From assembly GCF_014696315.1 (NCBI RefSeq), contig NZ_JACJPX010000048.1:1-63714 (forward strand): DNA of 63,714 bases, written 5' to 3'. The translations under genes and the position numbers were made by a program. This DNA comes from Calothrix membranacea FACHB-236 (GTDB lineage: Bacteria > Cyanobacteriota > Cyanobacteriia > Cyanobacteriales > Nostocaceae). How positions within the stretch are numbered: position 1 is the first letter of the stretch; the number at the start of each line of letters is the position of its first letter. This document shows positions 1 through 23,171 of this stretch, piece after piece. The notes beneath the pieces were generated by a model. The model saw only the letters and a list, made by a program, of their open reading frames with translations. It ran no database searches and was not told the origin of the DNA.

Positions 1-179
1 GCCCAGAACAAAATCCCATCGAGGATATTTGGTTACAAGCCAAAACATGGGTTCGACGTTTTTGCGCCTTGATTCCTTCGTTCTCACATTTGAAATGGAT
101 GTTTGAGTGGTTTATTCAACACACTACCTTTGATTTTCCAACTCTTCAGATGTACGGAGCTTTTTCAAAAATCAAATAG
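1..179 (+). CDS. IS630-type transposase, C-terminal end (partial)
   Basis: The frame beginning at base 3 is open to a TAG at 177-179 and encodes about 58 residues. It starts with PEQNPIEDIW, which matches the last catalytic block of IS630/Tc1-like DDE transposases (P-x-x-NPIE-D-x-W, where E is the third acidic residue), followed by the usual basic and aromatic C-terminal tail. The upstream part lies outside the window. The stop sits only a few bases from the DUF262 fragment on the opposite strand, so the right end of the element is probably near 180-190. The other end and its inverted repeat cannot be seen, so the element cannot be named. The motif is clear and the family call is fairly safe. 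Confidence 0.75.
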   Translation, partial: PEQNPIEDIWLQAKTWVRRFCALIPSFSHLKWMFEWFIQHTTFDFPTLQMYGAFSKIK

Positions 180-184
180 GAGTC

Positions 185-508
185 CTATATCTGTTCAGAC
201 ATTTGTTTATCATGTTTCTTAAGATGATTTCGTAATGCTGCTAAGAGAATACTAAGGGTCGTCAGACGTTGTTGTCCGTCTATTACAACATATGGGGTGA
301 TGCCGTCAGCTGTTCCTAATTCTGCCTGTGTAACTATAGGGCCAAGAAAATAAGAACCTTGGACTTCATCATTGTACAGACTCATCAAATCATCCCAAAG
401 AGTCCTCCAATTTTCCTCTTTCCAAGAATATGGTCTTTGAAACAGAGGTATTTGGAATTGTTTACCACCTTCTAGTAAGTTGCGGAGCGTTGTTTCTGAA
501 GCTTTCAT
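185..508 (-). pseudogene. DUF262 (GmrSD N-terminal-like) protein, truncated
   Basis: The 107 codons begin with an ATG at 508 and stop at 185. The product has the DUF262 signature: FQIPLFQRPYSW near residues 18-29 and VIDGQQRLTTL near residues 73-83, the ParB-like nucleotide-handling motif (DGQQR) of GmrS-type modification-dependent nucleases. DUF262 proteins normally run to about 550-700 residues, with a DUF1524 HNH nuclease half after this domain. Here the frame ends just after the motif, exactly where the IS630-type transposase begins on the other strand. The simplest reading is that insertion removed the rest of the gene. A free-standing short DUF262 protein is possible but unlikely. It may be a remnant of a type IV restriction or phage-defence gene. 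Confidence 0.75.
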
Positions 509-588
509 GGTAAATATTAGTATAATTTGATCTACGTTAACAAGAATAATGTTAATTTTACTAAAAAAGTAATATCTAAAGACATATA

Positions 589-616
589 AGAAAAGCCCGT
601 TGTCACGGACTTTTCT
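589..616 (-). terminator. Hairpin downstream of acnB
   Basis: Arms 589-599 and 606-616 pair over 11 bases with a single mismatch around a six-base loop. The hairpin lies 45 bases past the acnB stop on the transcribed strand and is followed by an AT-rich stretch. It is a plausible terminator, although the trailing T run is imperfect. Confidence 0.5.
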
Positions 617-660
617 CTAAAAATCTTAGTTACAATCTAAAATTGTATAATCAATTATTA

Positions 661-3321
661 CTACCTTGTCGCAGTAGGCATACCCAAAATTTCCTCAATC
701 TTGGGCATTTGTTCTAGCGGAATTACTCGACCTTCATCCTCAAAACCGATGATTTGATCGAAGTTCAAATATCGATACAAATTGTCAGCGAAAGGATTAA
801 TCTTCTTCGCCACAATATCCAAGTATTCTTGTACTGTGGGGATGCGTCCTAACAACGCACAAACTGCGGCTAATTCTGCGGAACCTAAATACACTCTTGC
901 ACCTTTACCCATACGATTATTAAAGTTGCGGGTAGAGGTAGAAAATACAGTTGTGCCATCAGCAACTCGCGCTTGGTTACCCATACATAAACTGCATCCT
1001 GGCATTTCTGTTCTTGCACCAGCCGCACCAAACACGCTATATACACCTTCTTCTTTTAATTGGTGTTCATCCATGCGGGTTGGAGGTGCTATCCACAGGC
1101 GTGTTTTTACTTCACCTGCACCTTCCAAAACTTTCGCTGTTGCCCGATAATGACCGATATTTGTCATACAAGAACCAACGAATACTTCTTGTACTGGATC
1201 GTTAGCAACTTCCGATAATAATTTCACATTATCGGGGTCATTAGGAGCAGCAACAATTGGTTCTTTTATTTCGTTCAAATCAATTTCAATTATTTCGGCA
1301 TACTCTGCATCTGCATCAGCTTCAAGTAATACGGGATTGGCTAACCATTCTTCCATTTTGGCGATACGACGGAGCAGAGTACGCTCATCATGGTAGCCTC
1401 TGGCTATCATGTTCTTTAACAGCGAGATGTTAGAACGCAGATATTCAGCAATTGTTTCTGGACTTAGCTTAATTGTGCAACCTGCACAGGAACGTTCTGC
1501 TGATGCATCTGTTAATTCAAAGGCTTGTTCAACTTTTAAATCGGGTAAGCCTTCCATTTCTAAAATCCGCCCAGAGAAGATATTTTTCTTGTTCTCTTTC
1601 TCTACTGTGAGCAATCCTTTTTGAATAGCGACGTAGGGAATGGCGTTAACAATATCTCTGAGGGTAATTCCTGGTTGTAATTCTCCTTTGAATCTTACCA
1701 AAACTGATTCTGGCATATCCAAAGGCATGACACCCAAAGCGGCGGCAAAGGCTACTAACCCGGAACCTGCGGGGAAGGAAATACCTAAGGGGAAGCGGGT
1801 GTGAGAGTCGCCACCAGTTCCGACGGTGTCGGGTAGCAGCATCCGGTTTAACCAAGAGTGGATGATACCATCACCAGGACGTAAAGCAACACCGCCGCGT
1901 TGGGCGAAAAAGTCTGGCAAATCGTGATGGGTTTTGATATCGACTGGTTTGGGATAAGCTGCAGTGTGACAGAAACTCTGCATTACCAAATCAGCACTGA
2001 AACCCAGACAGGCGAGTTCTTTTAATTCATCGCGGGTCATTGGGCCTGTGGTATCTTGGGAACCAACAGTTGTCATGATGGGTTCGCAAGATGTACCGGG
2101 GCGCACACCAGGTAATCCGCAAGCTTTCCCTACCATTTTCTGGGCGAGGGTGTAGCCTTTACCTGTATCTTCCGGTGCTTGGGGACGGATAAATAGGTTG
2201 CTGGGTTCTAAACCTAGTGCTTGGCGAGTTTTGTCGGTGAGGGTACGCCCAATTAACAAAGGAATGCGTCCACCTGCACGAACTTCATCAAAGATGGTAT
2301 CTGGTTTGAGGGTGAAGGTAGTAATAACTTCGCCGGCTTCGTTGGTGATTTCGCCTTTGTAGGGATGGATGGTAATCACGTCACCTGTTTCTAACTGGGT
2401 GACATCGCACTGAATTGGCAAAGCGCCAGCATCTTCAGCTGTATTAAAGAAGATAGGCGCGATCGCACCACCTAAAATATATCCCCCAGCGCGCTTATTG
2501 GGAACAAAGGGGATATCATTGCCCATGTGCCACAATACAGAGTTAATGGCAGATTTCCGAGATGAACCTGTACCCACTACATCACCAACATAGGCGACAG
2601 GATGTCCTTTTTTCTTTAATTCGGCAATGGTTTTTAAGCTTCCCGGTTGCCGTGACTCTAGCATCACTAAGGCGTGTAAGGGAATATCAGGGCGAGTGGT
2701 AGCACTTTGGGCGGGGGATAAGTCGTCGGTGTTGGTTTCCCCAGGGACTTTGAAGACTGTAACGGTAATTGTCTCTGGGAGTTGGGGACGAACAGTAAAC
2801 CACTCAGCTTCCGCCCAAGAGTCTATGACGCGCTTGGCAAAGGGATTAGTTTTAGATAACTCTAAAACATCATGGAAAGCATCATATACCAACAGAATTT
2901 TACTGAGGGCGTTGGCGGCATAGGCGGCGATGGGTTCCTTTCCTTGTCCCCCCATCACCAAGGGGGTTTCGGAAGAGTCGGAGACAGAGACAGTAGGAGT
3001 TTGCAGCAATTCAATTAAAGATTGCACATTGTAGCCACCTACCATTGTTCCCAGTAATTCTACTGCTTGGATGGGTGAAATTAAGGGGCTTTTGGTTTCA
3101 CCTTTAGCAATGGCAGTTAAAAACCCTGCTTTAACGTAAGCTGCAGCATCAACTCCAGGGGGTACGCGATCGCGCAATAAATGCAATAATGTATCTTCTT
3201 CACCTTTGGGCGGATTCTTCAGTAATTCGCACAACTGGGAAGTTTGTTTGGCATCTAGCGGTAAGGGGGGAATTCCTAATTCAGCTCTTTCTACGACGTG
3301 TTGACGATATGATTCCAACAT
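661..3321 (-). CDS. acnB: Bifunctional aconitate hydratase 2 / 2-methylisocitrate dehydratase
   Basis: This is AcnB, the [4Fe-4S] enzyme that interconverts citrate and isocitrate via cis-aconitate in the cytoplasm, and the aconitase typical of cyanobacteria. The N-terminus ([14 protein letters not shown], then [15 protein letters not shown]) aligns with the AcnB helical domain. The swivel domain has TDDLSPA. The cluster ligands appear as [12 protein letters not shown] and [10 protein letters not shown] near the C-terminus, and [16 protein letters not shown] is present. The length of 886 residues is normal. The chosen start is the ATG at 3321: it is preceded by GGAG at a good distance and matches the family start, whereas the longer frame would begin with TTG at 3345. 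The gene stands alone, with a hairpin downstream at 589-616. Confidence 0.97.
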
Positions 3322-3608
3322 TCTACACTCCAAGATATTAGCCAAAAATGGTTTTAGTGTTTATAATCACTGCCTATATTTCAGGAGAATTCAAGCTTAC
3401 AAGTCTTCATCGATGGTATCAACTGGTAATGAGTCTCCCTACTGGAAGTTTTTGGTCTGGCCAGGACTTATAATTATCACTGTATAGCTACTTCTGCCAA
3501 TAAATCTATTTGAAAATAATTTTTGGGTTGGCATTTCTCGACTTGGTTGTGTGCCTATTCATCAGATAAAATATTTCCTTTGTTAGTTAAATTACACTCT
3601 TTTTGTAT

Positions 3609-3926
3609 ATGTCCAAAACATACACCGTTGAAATCATCCATCAAGGTGAGAGCCACACTTTACAAGTCCCTGAAAATGAAACTATTTTAGCAGTTGCCGA
3701 TCAAGCTGGTTTAGAATTACCTAGTTCTTGTCATGCAGGTGTTTGTACAACTTGCGCGGGTAAAATTATCTCCGGATCTGTCGATCAAACTGATGGTATG
3801 GGCGTTAGTCCAGAATTACAAAAACAAGGCTATGTGTTGCTTTGTGTAGCTAAACCTCTTTCGGATATAAAAGTGGAAACTGAAAAAGAAGATACACTTT
3901 ATCAGTTGCAATTTGGCAAAGTTTAA
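3609..3926 (+). CDS. 2Fe-2S ferredoxin, plant type
   Basis: A 105-residue soluble electron carrier. The four cluster ligands are clear: Cys41, Cys46 and Cys49 in CHAGVCTTC, and Cys79 in LLCVAKP, giving the CX4CX2C...C pattern of plant-type ferredoxins. The photosynthetic PetF loop normally reads ARAGACSTCAGK. This one reads HAGVCTTCAGK and has a C-terminal extension (KEDTLYQLQFG), so it is more likely one of the alternative low-abundance ferredoxins than PetF. The ATG at 3609 (MSKTYTVEII) fits the family better than the TTG two codons upstream. A 15-bp perfect inverted repeat follows the stop. The redox partner cannot be told from the context. Confidence 0.9.
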   Translation: MSKTYTVEIIHQGESHTLQVPENETILAVADQAGLELPSSCHAGVCTTCAGKIISGSVDQTDGMGVSPELQKQGYVLLCVAKPLSDIKVETEKEDTLYQLQFGKV

Positions 3927-3927
3927 T

Positions 3928-3998
3928 TAAAGGATGAAGTATCAAGGCTAAAGGATGAAAAATTGACTGAAATTTCTCTTTTAATACTTCATCCTTTA
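3928..3998. terminator. 15-bp perfect inverted repeat after the ferredoxin gene
   Basis: Arms 3928-3942 and 3984-3998 are exact reverse complements of 15 bases, separated by 41 bases, and begin two bases past the ferredoxin stop. The arm also contains the AAAGGATGAA word that recurs in the loop at 3949-3959 and near 49811-49842, so it belongs to a dispersed repeat. It may act as a terminator or a processing stem. Confidence 0.5.
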
Positions 3999-4047
3999 TG
4001 CTGATATCGGCTATTCTAGAAAGCACTAATCAACAGGATAGGCTACA

Positions 4048-4221
4048 ATGACTACGCATTTTATTACCGCAGAAATTGACCTCCAAGAAACTCCTACAGA
4101 ATTAGAGCAAGCAATTGCCGCAGAATTAGAAAAACAGGGTGAACCTTTACGTTGGGCTATTACATCTGTAGATACAGAACAAGAAAAAGCTACTGTAGAA
4201 GCTGTTGTTACCCAAGCTTAG
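4048..4221 (+). CDS. Conserved small cyanobacterial protein, 57 residues
   Basis: This open frame runs from ATG 4048 to TAG 4219-4221 and encodes MTTHFITAEIDL...VVTQA, 57 residues. The protein is acidic with alternating strand and helix propensity (FITAEIDL, then ELEQAIAAELEKQGEPLRWAI, then KATVEAVV), which suggests a small beta-alpha-beta fold. There are no cysteines, signal peptide or membrane segment. Codon usage (GAA, TTA, GCA and ACT rich) is like the neighbours, and an AGGATAGG purine-rich box precedes the ATG. It lies between ferredoxin and DUF3326 on the same strand. I recognise the type as a widespread unnamed cyanobacterial small protein but know no function. Confidence 0.7.
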   Translation: MTTHFITAEIDLQETPTELEQAIAAELEKQGEPLRWAITSVDTEQEKATVEAVVTQA

Positions 4222-4363
4222 TCCTGAGTCCTGAGTTCTGAGATAGGGAAGTGGTAGAAGAGTACAGCAACTGTCTGGTAAATTAGGAATCAAAACTTCA
4301 TACACTTTCCTTATTCTCACTCAGCACGGGCTAAACGCCCCGCTACCGCTAACAGCACTTTTT

Positions 4364-5431
4364 ATGCAACGTCCATATACTGCTATTTTAATTGTACCTA
4401 CTGGTGTTGGAGCTGCAATCGGAGGTTATGCCGGGGATGCGTTACCAGTAGCAAGAGTTATATCACAGGTGTGCGATCGCCTCATTACTCACCCCAATGT
4501 CCTTAATGGGGCAAGTTTGTACTGGAATTTACCTAATACTTTCTATGTGGAAGGTTACGGGTTGGACAAATTTGCTGCGGGACAATGGGGTTTGCGCCCT
4601 GTACATAGAAATAAAATAGGTTTGCTTTTAGACCAGGGGATAGAGCCGGAATTAAGGCTGCGACACTTGCAAGCAGCAGATGCAGCCAGAGCTACCCTCG
4701 GATTAAGCCTGACAGATTATGTTGTCACAGATACGCCATTAAATATAGAATTACGCACATCACCATCGGGGATTAGTTGGGGGACAATTGGTAACCCCGA
4801 TAGTTTATTAAGAGCAGCAGAAGTATTAATTAAACAAGCTGGTGCAGATGCGATCGCAGTAGTAGCCCGTTTTCCTGATGATATGGAAGCAGAAGCAGTT
4901 GAAAACTATCGCCAAGGTAAAGGCGTAGATACCTTAGCAGGCGCAGAAGCAGTCATCAGCCATTTAATTGTGCGTACTTTTCAAATTCCCTGCGCCCATG
5001 CTCCAGCTTTAGCCTCATTCCCCCCAGATGCGAATTTATCTCCCCGTTCCGCCGCCGAAGAATTAGGCTATACTTTTTTACCGTGCGTACTTGTGGGTTT
5101 AAGTCGCGCACCACAATTTATCATAGAGAAAGGAACAATCAAATATCTACCAGAAGATATTTGGGCAGAGCAAATTGATGCTGCAATAATACCAGCAACT
5201 GCTTGTGGTAGTAGCGCAATTTTGAGCTTAAATCAGAAGCGATGCCAAATTATCACAGTTGCAGAAAATCAAACTCAAATCCAAGTTCCTCCAGAACCCT
5301 TAGGAATCAAGTCCATACAGGTAAACTCATATTTAGAAGCAGTAGGTGTTTTAGCAGCACACAAAGCAGGTGTCGATCCCGCTGCTCTCCGTCCGCAAAT
5401 AAATTCTCTACAGCAACTTGTTATTAGTTAA
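4364..5431 (+). CDS. DUF3326 domain-containing protein
   Basis: A 355-residue protein of the DUF3326 family, found mainly in cyanobacteria and plastid-bearing lineages. The family hallmarks are the N-terminus PYTAILIVPTGVGAAIGGYAGDALPVAR, the central ADAIAVVARFPDD segment and the late ATACGSSAIL segment. No catalytic activity is established. The gene follows the 57-residue gene and precedes the CPBP protease in the same direction, but the gaps of 94-140 bases are filled with short tandem repeats, so a shared transcript is uncertain. No transmembrane or secretion signal is obvious. The ATG start is the only good one and begins the conserved region directly. Confidence 0.85.
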   Translation: MQRPYTAILIVPTGVGAAIGGYAGDALPVARVISQVCDRLITHPNVLNGASLYWNLPNTFYVEGYGLDKFAAGQWGLRPVHRNKIGLLLDQGIEPELRLRHLQAADAARATLGLSLTDYVVTDTPLNIELRTSPSGISWGTIGNPDSLLRAAEVLIKQAGADAIAVVARFPDDMEAEAVENYRQGKGVDTLAGAEAVISHLIVRTFQIPCAHAPALASFPPDANLSPRSAAEELGYTFLPCVLVGLSRAPQFIIEKGTIKYLPEDIWAEQIDAAIIPATACGSSAILSLNQKRCQIITVAENQTQIQVPPEPLGIKSIQVNSYLEAVGVLAAHKAGVDPAALRPQINSLQQLVIS

Positions 5432-5432
5432 G

Positions 5433-5515
5433 AGTCAAAAGTCAAAAGTCAAAATTAATAAATAATTTCTTCTATAATCCCCATCTAGTCCCCAGTCCCC
5501 AGTCCCCAATTCCCC
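5433..5515. repeat. Short tandem repeats (AGTCAAA and AGTCCCC units)
   Basis: Two heptanucleotide runs fill the DUF3326-CPBP gap: AGTCAAA repeated near 5433-5453 and AGTCCCC/AATCCCC repeated near 5487-5515. These are the short tandemly repeated repetitive sequences typical of heterocystous cyanobacteria. Confidence 0.8.
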
Positions 5516-5524
5516 TAAATACCC

Positions 5525-6106
5525 GTGGTTGAACAACAAAAACAAGAACCAGAAATTCCTTACCTGACACGCATCCAAGTATTGGGAGCGATGGGAGCGA
5601 CTGCAATTATTTTGTGGATAGTCGCTAAATTGTGGTTGCGCTTTGGTGGCTTTTCCCTGTTTCCTTGGCGTTGGAATGAAAGTGATTTACTTTTGGGGGT
5701 GGGATTAGGATTAATTATCACTATTGTCAGTGGTTTAACTTATCGCTTTGTGCCAGCCTACCGTAAAAGCGCAGATTATTATCTGGACTTGGTGCTAAAG
5801 CCTTTAATTTTACCGGATATTATTTGGCTGGGATTGCTACCAGGATTAAGTGAAGAATTATTATTTCGGGGTGTGATGATTCCCGCCTTAGGTGCGGATC
5901 ATGTCGCTGTGATTGTATCCAGTCTTTGCTTTGGGGTATTGCATCTGAGTGGCTCTCAACAATGGCCTTATGTGATTTGGGCAACTATTGTTGGGTTAAT
6001 GCTAGGCTATGGTGCGCTATTGAGTGGCAACTTGCTAGTGCCAATTATTGCCCATGTGATGACGAATTTGATTTCTAGTTATTTGTGGAAGTTGCGAAAA
6101 GGCTAG
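5525..6106 (+). CDS. CPBP family intramembrane glutamic endopeptidase
   Basis: A 193-residue membrane protein with about five or six hydrophobic segments. It carries the three conserved motifs of the CPBP (Abi, Rce1-like) family: EELLFRG (EExxxR) near residues 110-116, FGVLH (FxxxH) near residues 138-142 and HVMTN (HxxxN/D) near residues 176-180. These residues form the active site in the membrane. Cyanobacteria carry many paralogues, mostly of unknown substrate; some are linked to bacteriocin immunity or protein maturation. The start is GTG at 5525 without a convincing ribosome binding site, so the N-terminus is provisional. A 12-bp perfect inverted repeat separates it from the convergent purN. 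Confidence 0.9.
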   Translation: MVEQQKQEPEIPYLTRIQVLGAMGATAIILWIVAKLWLRFGGFSLFPWRWNESDLLLGVGLGLIITIVSGLTYRFVPAYRKSADYYLDLVLKPLILPDIIWLGLLPGLSEELLFRGVMIPALGADHVAVIVSSLCFGVLHLSGSQQWPYVIWATIVGLMLGYGALLSGNLLVPIIAHVMTNLISSYLWKLRKG

Positions 6107-19694: not shown

Positions 19695-20423
19695 CTACTT
19701 CTGTGACCACAGATCAACTATCTCAAGCATTTTTTCAGTGCTTATTGCTTTATTCATTTTTTTACCATGTGGAACTCTAACTCTTTCCACTACATCATTT
19801 AATGACTTAAACTGTCCTTTGCTACGCTCATTTTCTACTGATTCTGCAATCTGTTCAGCTTTTTTTGGTGCAAAACCAGCATTACGTAACTTGTGAGCAA
19901 TCTCTACTTTTCCTAGCTTTTTAAACACTTCTAATGGCTCATGTATATTTGCTATTTGCTTCTTAAGAGTTTTGATTTCATTTTCTAGCTTGACATTAGC
20001 TGTAGCTTGTTCTAAGACTTGATTAGTGATTTTTTCAAACCGTGACTCTAAATTTATTAAGAATTTTTCAAAATCATTTGAGTTGAAGTTTGACTTTTCT
20101 GAAATATTAATATTTTTCTGCCTAAAAATTTGTACTTGATTAATTAAACCTTCTTCATTTTCAGGCTCAATAATAAATACTCCAATCATCTCTCCTTTAC
20201 GAGGATCAATTTCTCTAGCTCTAGCGGCAGCATAATACTCAAAGTCTCCATCTATTACCTCGTATGATTGTAAACTAATCCTACGAACAACTATGGGATT
20301 AATAACGCCTTCCGAATCTAAAATTAATTGAGCAGCTTTTTCTATTTCATCATCTGCGAAAGTCGAACGCAGTTTGTTTGATGTAATTTTTTTGACGGCA
20401 ACGAGCGATGTAGATAACTTCAT
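19695..20423 (-). CDS. ParB-like nuclease-domain protein with coiled coil and HhH-like tail
   Basis: A 242-residue protein. Residues 1-85 resemble the ParB N-terminal domain: VKKITSNKLRSTF, GVINPIVVRR and VIDGDFEYYAAARAREI, where GDFEYYAAA stands in for the usual GERRxxAA nucleotide-binding box. Residues 115-155 are Glu/Lys-rich and probably coiled coil. Residues 165-205 (GKVEIAHKLRNAGFAPKKAEQIAESV, then FKSLNDVVERV) look like a helix-hairpin-helix DNA-binding element rather than the KorB-type HTH of true ParB. The start overlaps the stop of the nuclease-ParA gene by one base (TAATG), so translation is coupled. The altered box suggests the CTP-binding chemistry may differ or be lost. Confidence 0.75.
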   Translation of the reverse strand: MKLSTSLVAVKKITSNKLRSTFADDEIEKAAQLILDSEGVINPIVVRRISLQSYEVIDGDFEYYAAARAREIDPRKGEMIGVFIIEPENEEGLINQVQIFRQKNINISEKSNFNSNDFEKFLINLESRFEKITNQVLEQATANVKLENEIKTLKKQIANIHEPLEVFKKLGKVEIAHKLRNAGFAPKKAEQIAESVENERSKGQFKSLNDVVERVRVPHGKKMNKAISTEKMLEIVDLWSQK

Positions 20424-21814
20424 TAATCTAGCCCTATTTTCTTTAAAACTTCTATTGCTAATAACTCAAATTCGTGTGCTGATAGGGATTCTGGTTTAAA
20501 ATCTAATACTGATATAGGATCAGCTATTTCTATTTCTCCCACAATCTGAATCCTTTCAGCGCACTTTGCCAAATCCTCTCTTTCATAAATAACAGCATCC
20601 ATTACATTAATCCCATATCGGCTAGAAATCTTCTCTATCCTATTTTTTAATGTAGATTGTACAAACCTAGCATTTGTTGATATTTTACAAGGGAGAACTC
20701 CTATAATTTCAATTTGAGGCTTTCTTATTTGTTTTCTATATGCATTAATACTTTTGATAAATTCTTTAACATTTGTTAGACCTTGATTGGCAAAAGGTTT
20801 TAAATCTGAGGGAATAATTAAGTAATCTGCTGCTATCAAGGCAATTTTTGCATATAGGTTTAAAGAAGGTGGCGTATCAATAAGTACAACATCATATTTG
20901 TCCTTAACTTCCTCTAATTTTTCAAGGAGTATGAGTCGGCTATAATCGAGGGCATTTAGTTCTGTTTCTTGCCTAATTAAATCAATATGTGCAGGAATTA
21001 CATAAATTTCAGGATTACTAAAATTAGATTTTCTAGCTACTTCTGAAATAGAGTAAAAATCTTCCGATTGCAATACATGAAAAATATTAGAGTCTTTAAT
21101 ATCATCAAACTCTTCATCATCAAATTTAACTAAGCCAGTAGCAAATGTAGTGTTTGCTTGGCTATCTAGATCAATAACTAGTACTTTCTTACCTTTTTTT
21201 CTCATGGCAGCAGCTAAGTTAACTACAGTTGTAGTCTTACCAACACCACCTTTATTGTGATAAACGGCAATTATTTTCATAAAATGCTCCTTGTGGGTTT
21301 CATTGATTAGATTATTTTCAATTTTTTGAATCTGTAAATTATCGATAGCGTATTTTTCTTGTAACCTATTCCTACCAATTAAATTTTGAATTTCTTTGAG
21401 TTTCGTTTCTACTTCTTTGCCACTACAGCAAAAAACTAGTCTAATATCATATTGAAATTTTTCATAAATTCTAATGTCTTTACCATTTGTTAATAATCCA
21501 TAACGCACATTTAGGCTTGTCAAATAATGCCTAAGTCTGGGAACGTGATTATTTAAATTTTGTTTAGGATGCTTCGCCTCCATCACTACACTTAGCGGCG
21601 AGTTTGCATCTAAAACAAAGGGAATAACTTGTGCAGCAAATGCTAAGAAATCTAAGCGGATGCTACCAAGGACGACTTCTTGATGCCAGGTGTCAGGAGT
21701 ATACCCTAGCTCTGGTAGCAAATATTGAACTATGAGTTTACTTTCAACTTCGCTTTCGTTACGGCACAGTTCAGGATTAAAAGGCAATCTCTTGCTCCCT
21801 GGAGAAAACTGCAA
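20423..21814 (-). CDS. PD-(D/E)XK nuclease-like domain fused to ParA ATPase
   Basis: A 463-residue two-domain protein. Residues 15-125 resemble the N-terminal nuclease domain of type I restriction HsdR subunits: Glu20, Glu22 and Glu24 in NESEVESK, Asp55 in RLDF and Glu79-Ala-Lys81 in VVMEAKHP, which together give the D...ExK active site. Residues 179-460 are a complete ParA/Soj ATPase with the deviant Walker A KGGVGKTT (188-195), VIDLDSQANTT, and VVLIDTPPSLN as Walker B. The first codon is TTG at 21814; another TTG at 21787 has a better GGGAG box. The internal ATG at 21280 (Met179) has a strong Shine-Dalgarno, so free ParA may also be made. The stop overlaps the ParB-like start. ParA partner plus nuclease suggests DNA segregation or defence. 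Confidence 0.8.
   Translation of the reverse strand: MQFSPGSKRLPFNPELCRNESEVESKLIVQYLLPELGYTPDTWHQEVVLGSIRLDFLAFAAQVIPFVLDANSPLSVVMEAKHPKQNLNNHVPRLRHYLTSLNVRYGLLTNGKDIRIYEKFQYDIRLVFCCSGKEVETKLKEIQNLIGRNRLQEKYAIDNLQIQKIENNLINETHKEHFMKIIAVYHNKGGVGKTTTVVNLAAAMRKKGKKVLVIDLDSQANTTFATGLVKFDDEEFDDIKDSNIFHVLQSEDFYSISEVARKSNFSNPEIYVIPAHIDLIRQETELNALDYSRLILLEKLEEVKDKYDVVLIDTPPSLNLYAKIALIAADYLIIPSDLKPFANQGLTNVKEFIKSINAYRKQIRKPQIEIIGVLPCKISTNARFVQSTLKNRIEKISSRYGINVMDAVIYEREDLAKCAERIQIVGEIEIADPISVLDFKPESLSAHEFELLAIEVLKKIGLD
21287..21292 (-). promoter_or_regulatory. Internal Shine-Dalgarno for free ParA (Met179, ATG at 21280)
   Basis: On the minus strand AAGGAG is followed by six bases (CATTTT) and then ATG at 21280, inside the frame of the nuclease-ParA gene at the exact start of the ParA domain (MKIIAVYHNKGGVGKTT). 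It is a far better start signal than those at the gene's 5' end and suggests two nested products. Confidence 0.6.
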
Positions 21815-22286: not shown

Positions 22287-23171
22287 ATGGGATATGTAAT
22301 TGCAACTGCAAATATGAAAGGTGGTGTCGGTAAAACCACCATTACGGTTAATTTAGCTACTTGTTTAGCTAAGTATCATGGCAAGCGGGTATTGGTTCTA
22401 GATTTAGATAGCCAAATTAGTGCCACACTCAGTTTGATGTCGCCTTTGGAATTTGCCAAGCGGCGGAAAAATCGAAAGACATTTCGATATCTAATAGACC
22501 AAGTTATCGCTCCCGAACCGGATGCTAAGTTGACGATTCAAGATATCGTTCATGCCAATGTTTGTAAGTTACCTGGATTAGATTTATTACCAGGAGATAT
22601 CGATTTATACGATGAATTTGTTGTTTCAGAAATGCTGCATCAACAATCAGTAGCGTTGGGTGAGCAGGATTTTGAAATGGTTTGGAATCGGTTTGAAAGG
22701 GTGTTAATTAATAACATCCTCAAACCAGTTCGGCAGGAGTATGATTTTATAATTTTGGACTGTGCCCCTGGCTATAATCTTTTAACTCGTAGTGCTTTGG
22801 CTTGTAGTGATTTCTATATTTTACCTGCTAAACCAGAACCATTATCTGTAGTAGGTATTCAATTGTTAGAAAGACGCATTGGACAATTAAAAGATAGTCA
22901 CGAACATGAAGCGAAAATCGATATAAAAATGCTGGGTATTGTATTCAGTATGTCGAGTTCAAATCTTTTAACTAGCAGATATTACAAACAAGTAATGCAT
23001 CGCGTTGTGGAAGATTTTGGTGTAGAAAAAATTTGTAAAAATCAAATCCCAATTGATGTGAATGTGGCTAAGGCTGTTGATAGTTTTATGCCAGCTGTTT
23101 TAATGAGTCCGCAATCTCCTGGTTCTAAGGCATTTCTGCAGTTAACTCAGGAGTTGTTGCAGAAGTTATAG
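22287..23171 (+). CDS. Stand-alone ParA family ATPase
   Basis: A 294-residue ParA/MinD-like ATPase. The Walker A is KGGVGKTT (residues 12-19) after MGYVIATANM, Walker A' is VLVLDLDSQISAT, and Walker B is DFIILDCAPGYN. It lacks the N-terminal HTH of plasmid SopA-type ParA, so it is a small (type Ib or chromosomal Soj-like) form. A ribosome binding site is not obvious. There is no ParB next to it in the same direction; the ParB-like gene lies across the divergent region. Possible roles are chromosome, plasmid or carboxysome-like cargo positioning, and the sequence does not decide. An 11-bp inverted repeat separates it from convergent ileS. Confidence 0.88.
   Translation: MGYVIATANMKGGVGKTTITVNLATCLAKYHGKRVLVLDLDSQISATLSLMSPLEFAKRRKNRKTFRYLIDQVIAPEPDAKLTIQDIVHANVCKLPGLDLLPGDIDLYDEFVVSEMLHQQSVALGEQDFEMVWNRFERVLINNILKPVRQEYDFIILDCAPGYNLLTRSALACSDFYILPAKPEPLSVVGIQLLERRIGQLKDSHEHEAKIDIKMLGIVFSMSSSNLLTSRYYKQVMHRVVEDFGVEKICKNQIPIDVNVAKAVDSFMPAVLMSPQSPGSKAFLQLTQELLQKL

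Follow-up and report, generated by a model that had tools for sequence, protein, structure and literature searches.

A nuclease-ParA fusion with a ParB-like partner in cyanobacterial chromosomes: exchangeable cassettes and phage-borne ParB-N domains suggest an unrecognised antiviral defence

ParA and ParB proteins position and share out DNA and cargo. In a contig of Calothrix membranacea FACHB-236 (63,714 nucleotides, the whole of which we refer to as the window) we find an operon that joins such a pair to a DNA-cutting domain: an HsdR-type nuclease domain is fused to a ParA ATPase, and the next gene encodes a ParB-like protein. Comparison of related loci indicates that ParA and the ParB-like protein form a cassette that is swapped as one piece at an unchanging site whilst the nuclease domain stays, and several viral contigs carry stand-alone copies of the ParB-N domain. 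The combination of swapped guidance parts and phage imitation suggests an unrecognised antiviral defence. We give a probability of roughly 0.6 to the reading that this is a chromosomal module directed against phages or other invading DNA, in which a nuclease targeted by ParA and ParB would be engaged in an arms race with phage mimics.

The initial annotation had described a nuclease-ParA fusion overlapping by one base the gene for a ParB-like protein with an HhH-like tail, and the window contains exactly this, with both genes on the minus strand (Table 1). Most relatives of the fusion start at what corresponds to codon 10 of the window ORF, a TTG preceded by GGGAG, which makes a product of 454 aa probable. 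Of the first start-to-stop ORFs at 61 loci, 40 open with TTG. The nuclease domain was matched once in the 8.8 Mb, 164-contig genome, by the fusion itself, and the closest named relatives by fusion protein are Nostoc species (among the best 80 of 252 matches). The ParB-like gene lies 3' of the fusion on the same strand in the window and in all 60 loci read, and in 56 of these 61 its spacing from the fusion is between -22 and +5 bases. The genomic location, which had been expected to vary, does not do so freely: the operon occupies a few conserved chromosomal sites, and it is the cassette that varies in place.

Table 1. Features of the operon and its neighbour in the window.
Feature	Position	Strand	Remarks
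HSDR_N nuclease-ParA ATPase fusion gene	20423..21787	-	Probable TTG start at 21787; ORF opens at TTG 21814
N-terminal HsdR-type PD-(D/E)XK domain (predicted)	21347..21781	-	Pfam match; residue counts over 125 loci
Active-site codons	Asp55 21650-21652, Glu79 21578-21580, Lys81 21572-21574	-	
ParA part with its own internal ATG (Met179)	20423..21280	-	Probable second product, free ParA, 285 aa
AAGGAG ribosome-site match, 5' of internal ParA start	21287..21292	-	Sequence scan
ParB-like partner: ParB-N fold, coiled-coil linker, HhH-like tail	19695..20423	-	
ParB-N domain (portion carried alone by phages)	20115..20423	-	
HhH-like C-terminal domain, residues 160-242 of ParB-like protein	19698..19946	-	
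Counterpart of relatives' exchangeable cassette (linker + ParA + ParB-like)	19695..21340	-	Pairwise DNA profiles; window end inferred
Separate core ParA, divergent neighbour outside the module	22287..23171	+	Present in 23/24 fusion-less Nostocaceae genomes

The N-terminal domain belongs to the Pfam family HSDR_N and is predicted to adopt the PD-(D/E)XK nuclease fold. Removal of 10 duplicates from 135 loci left 125 distinct loci, and Asp55, Glu79 and Lys81 are retained in 124 of these; loss of the D...ExK residues from homologues, which had been named beforehand as a possible refutation, therefore did not occur. The structure model of the fusion is poor over the nuclease domain (pLDDT <50 at residues 42-74), the Foldseek matches listed for it are to ParA only, and a sequence search for a related solved structure of the nuclease domain returned none.

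The ParA part has intact Walker A, A' and B motifs, and its catalytic residues (Lys188, Lys193, Thr194, Asp215, Asp217 and Asp313) are invariant in the 125 loci. At the position of window Met179 all 125 fusions have a start codon (108 ATG, 16 GTG, 1 TTG), against at most 12 of 125 at the flanking positions; elsewhere in 97 loci, Val is encoded by GTG in only 11% of cases. This internal start is preceded by at least 4 bases of Shine-Dalgarno match in 92 of 125 loci, compared with 4.3% of 604 other in-frame Met codons. Fourteen relatives encode a plain ParA that begins at this very position and is followed by a ParB-like gene, and nine of ten fusions of a second subfamily (L229-L238) have ATG there. 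We infer that one gene yields the nuclease-ParA and, more efficiently, free ParA. A parallel is the IncC1/IncC2-KorB system of RK2, in which a single gene gives a long and a short ParA (PMC8481139), although in our case what extends the long form is a nuclease domain whose active site is conserved, the module is chromosomal and the tail of the partner is not KorB-like. One locus (L074, 11065-11943) has a plain ParA upstream of the fusion on the same strand, 81% identical to the adjacent fusion's ParA and with no ParB of its own between the two, perhaps a remnant cassette.

A GERR-type nucleotide box is typical of ParB. The ParB-like protein has GDFE at this place in the window and GHFEYY in most relatives listed, and it has neither the GERR-type box nor the HTH and C-terminal dimerisation domain of partition ParB. 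The ParB_N family was found in all 45 ParB-like proteins examined, and the tail families listed for them are HHH, Rho_N or SAP, with no HTH family among these. Tails alternate between HhH-like and Rho_N/SAP types (e.g. L191, L198), with 50 changes on the ParA tree against a shuffled mean of 88, and form a further module.

Within the order, the nuclease domain occurs in 131 of 291 genomes at E ≤ 1e-3 and in 110 at E ≤ 1e-34, the ParB-like protein in 126; phylum-wide, matches at E ≤ 1e-3 come from 81 of 386 genomes and include divergent subfamilies in which the nuclease domain and ParA often have a ParB-like neighbour (L229-L242). We read 60 of the 110 strong orthologues (L069-L128). The best 80 of 252 genome-contig relatives are all cyanobacterial by title. 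Six of 80 named loci lack an intact fusion ORF of >420 aa, some being cut by contig ends. At several loci (L244, L246, L264, L268) the operon lies in fragments, which, if not due to sequencing errors, suggests that cells can do without it. Three genomes (G118, G253, G173) each hold a fusion together with a plain ParA/ParB-like pair, and the fourteen plain pairs mean that the nuclease is not obligatory for the pair, a departure from what had been predicted, and that ParA and its partner serve some purpose by themselves. The nuclease domain is absent from the viral contigs scanned. Among 72,556 plasmid records (PLSDB) the ParB-like protein had no match at E ≤ 1e-3, which led us to reject a plasmid partition module as the main reading and lends no support to a plasmid-borne selfish module; the nuclease domain matched ten records, none over 80% of the query, all annotated as restriction/methylase or related, one of them a DUF5655 protein.

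Two further arrangements of the pair were seen in passing. In L243 (3774-6974, genome G040) the place of the nuclease next to ParA and the ParB-like protein is taken by a fused AAA_12/AAA_11 (SF1-type) helicase, which has MkoA matches in PADLOC and is split over two ORFs, and a divergent HSDR_N-ParA operon adjoins it. Within one genus, a plain pair lies 64 bases 3' of a gene (L254 8242-8727, L255 4945-5466) whose product, we assume, resembles a NADAR protein.

Genomes without the fusion retain the neighbouring core ParA: it is present in 23 of 24 Nostocaceae genomes lacking an orthologous fusion, where it is 78-91% identical to the window copy; it is mostly divergent from an adjacent fusion. 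Among 20 fusion-less loci read, 14 have an operon of ~285, 700 and 870 aa proteins at the fusion's site, recognised by length and leading residues, with the proteins searched for one locus, L300. There (9-5689) it encodes a 285-aa protein, a 701-aa AAA_16 protein and an 866-aa protein with 3'-5' exonuclease, PD-(D/E)XK and FtsK domains, the FtsK part of which matches SspH (1.9e-65). Relatives of SspH and the HerA-FtsK defence ATPases thus occupy the site in fusion-less genomes, although the proteins are unrelated to those of the fusion operon, and we regard this three-gene operon as a candidate defence system itself. The two systems are not mutually exclusive, as about 10 of 61 fusion loci have relatives of the three-gene operon nearby. 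In genome G191 (L233) a fusion of the second subfamily occupies the site beside the core ParA. No HsdM/HsdS-type partner was found among the conserved neighbours of the fusion.

Over 8128 pairs of loci, identity in ParA correlates with that in ParB-N at 0.88, against 0.33 for nuclease and ParA and 0.42 for ParB-N and tail. Of the 284 pairs of distinct loci that share 90% or more of their nuclease domain, 153 have ParAs below 65% identity, whilst the flanking controls (core ParA, two glycosyltransferases and IleS) do so in 0 of 208 pairs, 188 of which come from one glycosyltransferase. Core ParA and IleS remain above 65% in all of their 289 and 133 control pairs at nuclease identities down to 80%. 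The glycosyltransferase controls become less clean in this lower range: identities under 65% are seen for GT1 in 9 of 24 pairs at nuclease identities of 85-90% and in 43 of 103 at 80-85%, and for GT2 in 2 of 249 and 59 of 297, respectively. Between L196 and L197, DNA identity is 92-100% in the upstream region and over the greater part of the nuclease domain, drops to 32-84% between the linker and the 3' end of ParB, and returns to 95-100% from ~100 bases further. L106/L108 and L069/L131 exhibit the same pattern; L131/L133 have an additional insertion 3' of ParB, L130/L147 a milder drop, and L148/L170 were uninformative downstream. As the upstream DNA stays closely similar between differing cassettes, any cassette-specific DNA site must sit inside the exchanged segment. 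In trees of the 118 of 125 loci with a usable ParB, ParA types, defined by average linkage (single linkage had merged nearly all, 134 and 1), required 9 changes on their own tree and 42 on the nuclease tree, where shuffled labels averaged 57.6 and never went below 49, implying that exchange is heavy yet incomplete. Plain ParAs are interspersed among fused ones, with 9 changes against a shuffled mean of 15.4.

Three types of viral contig (L275, L276 and L283/L284) encode ParB-N domains of 100-102 aa which end at the domain boundary; judged by the host protein, these would be the half of ParB that should touch ParA, minus the DNA-binding tail. No ParA or nuclease match lies within the stretch read in any of them, and the adjoining genes are those of phages: endolysin and thymidylate synthase (L275), tail proteins (L276) and the major head protein (L284). 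Amongst hosts, the nearest neighbour of a ParB-N falls in the same ParA class in 108 of 108 cases, and the phage domains are placed inside or beside host classes: L275 is nearest to class 4 (80%, the next class being given as 43% or as 48% or less), whilst L276 is nearest to class 8 (54% vs. 48%) and L283 to class 9 (59% vs. 50%), both by modest margins. Short ParB-fold proteins of ~100 aa, almost all ParB fold, are described as common in phages generally (PMC12704722), hence it is the class-matched resemblance that counts and not presence alone. In comparison with the proteins as that source presents them, the phage domains here are alike in size but are 51-80% identical (closest matches) to a hypervariable host ParB, in three class-matched versions.

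L266 has a 139-aa version beside a terminase gene which fits no class, and a viral scan with this protein found no relatives; in L265, where an integrase adjoins, the ParB-N is the terminal part of a 251-aa protein, fits class 4 weakly and may belong to another mobile element. Anabaena phage A-4L (L279, NC_024358.1, ~21064-21324) has a more distant ParB-N-like domain (44.6 bits to the host profile; 33% at 1e-3) within a large tail protein, perhaps carried in the virion. One phage ParB-N query weakly matched one Oscillatoria plasmid (1e-3). L277, L278 and L281 were set aside, the match being a short one in a 411-aa protein (two contigs) or to an ordinary 316-aa phage ParB.

We know of no defence or partition system with a nuclease-ParA/ParB architecture, and a search of the open-access literature (preprints excluded) found no description of such a module. 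The intact ParA ATPase is common to the module and ParABS, but here ParA bears a nuclease, the box is GDFE or GHFEYY, an HhH or SAP tail replaces the HTH, and the operon is patchy, lies away from dnaA and has its cassette exchanged in place. With type I restriction-modification, in which HsdS is the exchangeable specificity part, the module shares an HsdR-type N-terminal nuclease domain and the principle of a constant nuclease with exchangeable specificity parts, yet the operon has no methyltransferase, SF2 motor or HsdS, and has ParA and ParB instead. PADLOC gave a weak match of the ParA part alone to PDC-M28B (4e-11, residues 146-276), an identity we rejected since the same model matches the neighbouring core ParA (4e-7) and the similarity is thus generic.

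The defence reading draws on the retained triad, the conserved internal start and patchy presence, on the swapping of ParA and ParB as a unit between constant flanks and nuclease, on the three phage types with stand-alone ParB-N beside phage genes, and on the FtsK-like/exonuclease operon at the same site in fusion-less loci; patchy presence with local replacement is itself a defence-type feature. Against it we count the plain pairs without nuclease, the generic nature of the PADLOC similarity, the modest class margins of L276 and L283 and the classless L266, the commonness of short ParB-fold proteins in phages (PMC12704722), the low-confidence nuclease model, and the position of the window locus outside any recognised defence island. 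The earlier idea of a conflict system that positions and cuts DNA is strengthened by the triad, the co-varying ParA and ParB and the phage ParB-N domains; defence, which these also favour, is put forward as a proposal.

A more specific version, to which we would give even odds, is an immune system in which ParA and ParB aim the nuclease, a built-in free ParA regulates it, and class-matched phage ParB-N decoys drive cassette exchange. On DNA, free ParA would pair with a minority of nuclease-ParA in mixed dimers that depend on ATP; the HhH or SAP tail of the ParB-like protein would bind some target DNA structure, and its ParB-N would gather ParA until two nuclease domains meet and cut, with free ParA diluting the nuclease-ParA on target DNA. 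A tail-less phage ParB-N could then occupy ParA as a decoy and block this gathering, which would select for new ParA/ParB-N pairs and hence for swapping.

Ordinary partition is disfavoured. The best-surviving alternative, though an unlikely one, is a chromosome- or cargo-positioning ParA/ParB of polyploid cyanobacteria, whose HsdR-like domain would be a DNA-handling add-on, for example for resolving or trimming DNA. The operon is chromosomal and single-copy in the window genome, plain pairs exist, and a canonical ParB (>85 bits) is missing from the main chromosome, identified by contig number and size, in 25 of 30 genomes (the exceptions being G113, G289, G235, G200 and G142), so that the fusion pair, though patchy, is often the sole ParA/ParB-like operon there. 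Yet strong orthologues occur in only 110 of 291 genomes, ParA and ParB are replaced in place among close relatives, and the distance to dnaA, taken as a proxy for the origin, is 2.7-46.2% of the replicon (median 21.3, n = 23), with three of 23 within 5%; of the 27 genomes searched, two gave no match, G283 gave three and G144 was a part contig, and these four are not counted. A housekeeping location with plain partition, which had been named as grounds for dropping the conflict idea, is thus not what we see. Nor is there a class-specific upstream site, the upstream DNA of L196 and L197 being 92-99% identical despite differing cassettes. A repeat search for a parS-like site in five intergenic stretches brought no repeat family to prominence. 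Somewhat more doubtful still is plasmid exclusion or incompatibility, with ParA and ParB diversifying to interfere with or avoid plasmid partition and the nuclease destroying captured replicons: the bimodal ParA classes across families do resemble incompatibility types and three genomes combine a fusion with a plain pair, but the ParB-like protein has no close plasmid relatives, plasmid ParAs are at most ~34% identical among the matches listed, and the stand-alone ParB-N domains are on phage contigs, though that of L265 is beside an integrase. That phage ParB-N merely recruits host ParA for phage positioning, with cassette swaps unrelated (e.g. relaxed selection or hitch-hiking), is improbable: ~100-aa ParB-fold proteins are common in phages (PMC12704722) and ParA could in principle position phage DNA, but the phage domains have no C-terminal DNA-binding module to tether cargo, and invariant ParA catalytic residues with same-class nearest ParB-N throughout do not look like relaxed selection.

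If the defence reading is true, a positioning machine is used to aim a nuclease, and the contact surface of ParA and ParB is a battleground between host and phage. It would also account for the many cyanobacterial chromosomes that have a ParA/ParB operon unlike a partition locus, and each ParA/ParB class would offer a testable host-phage pair.
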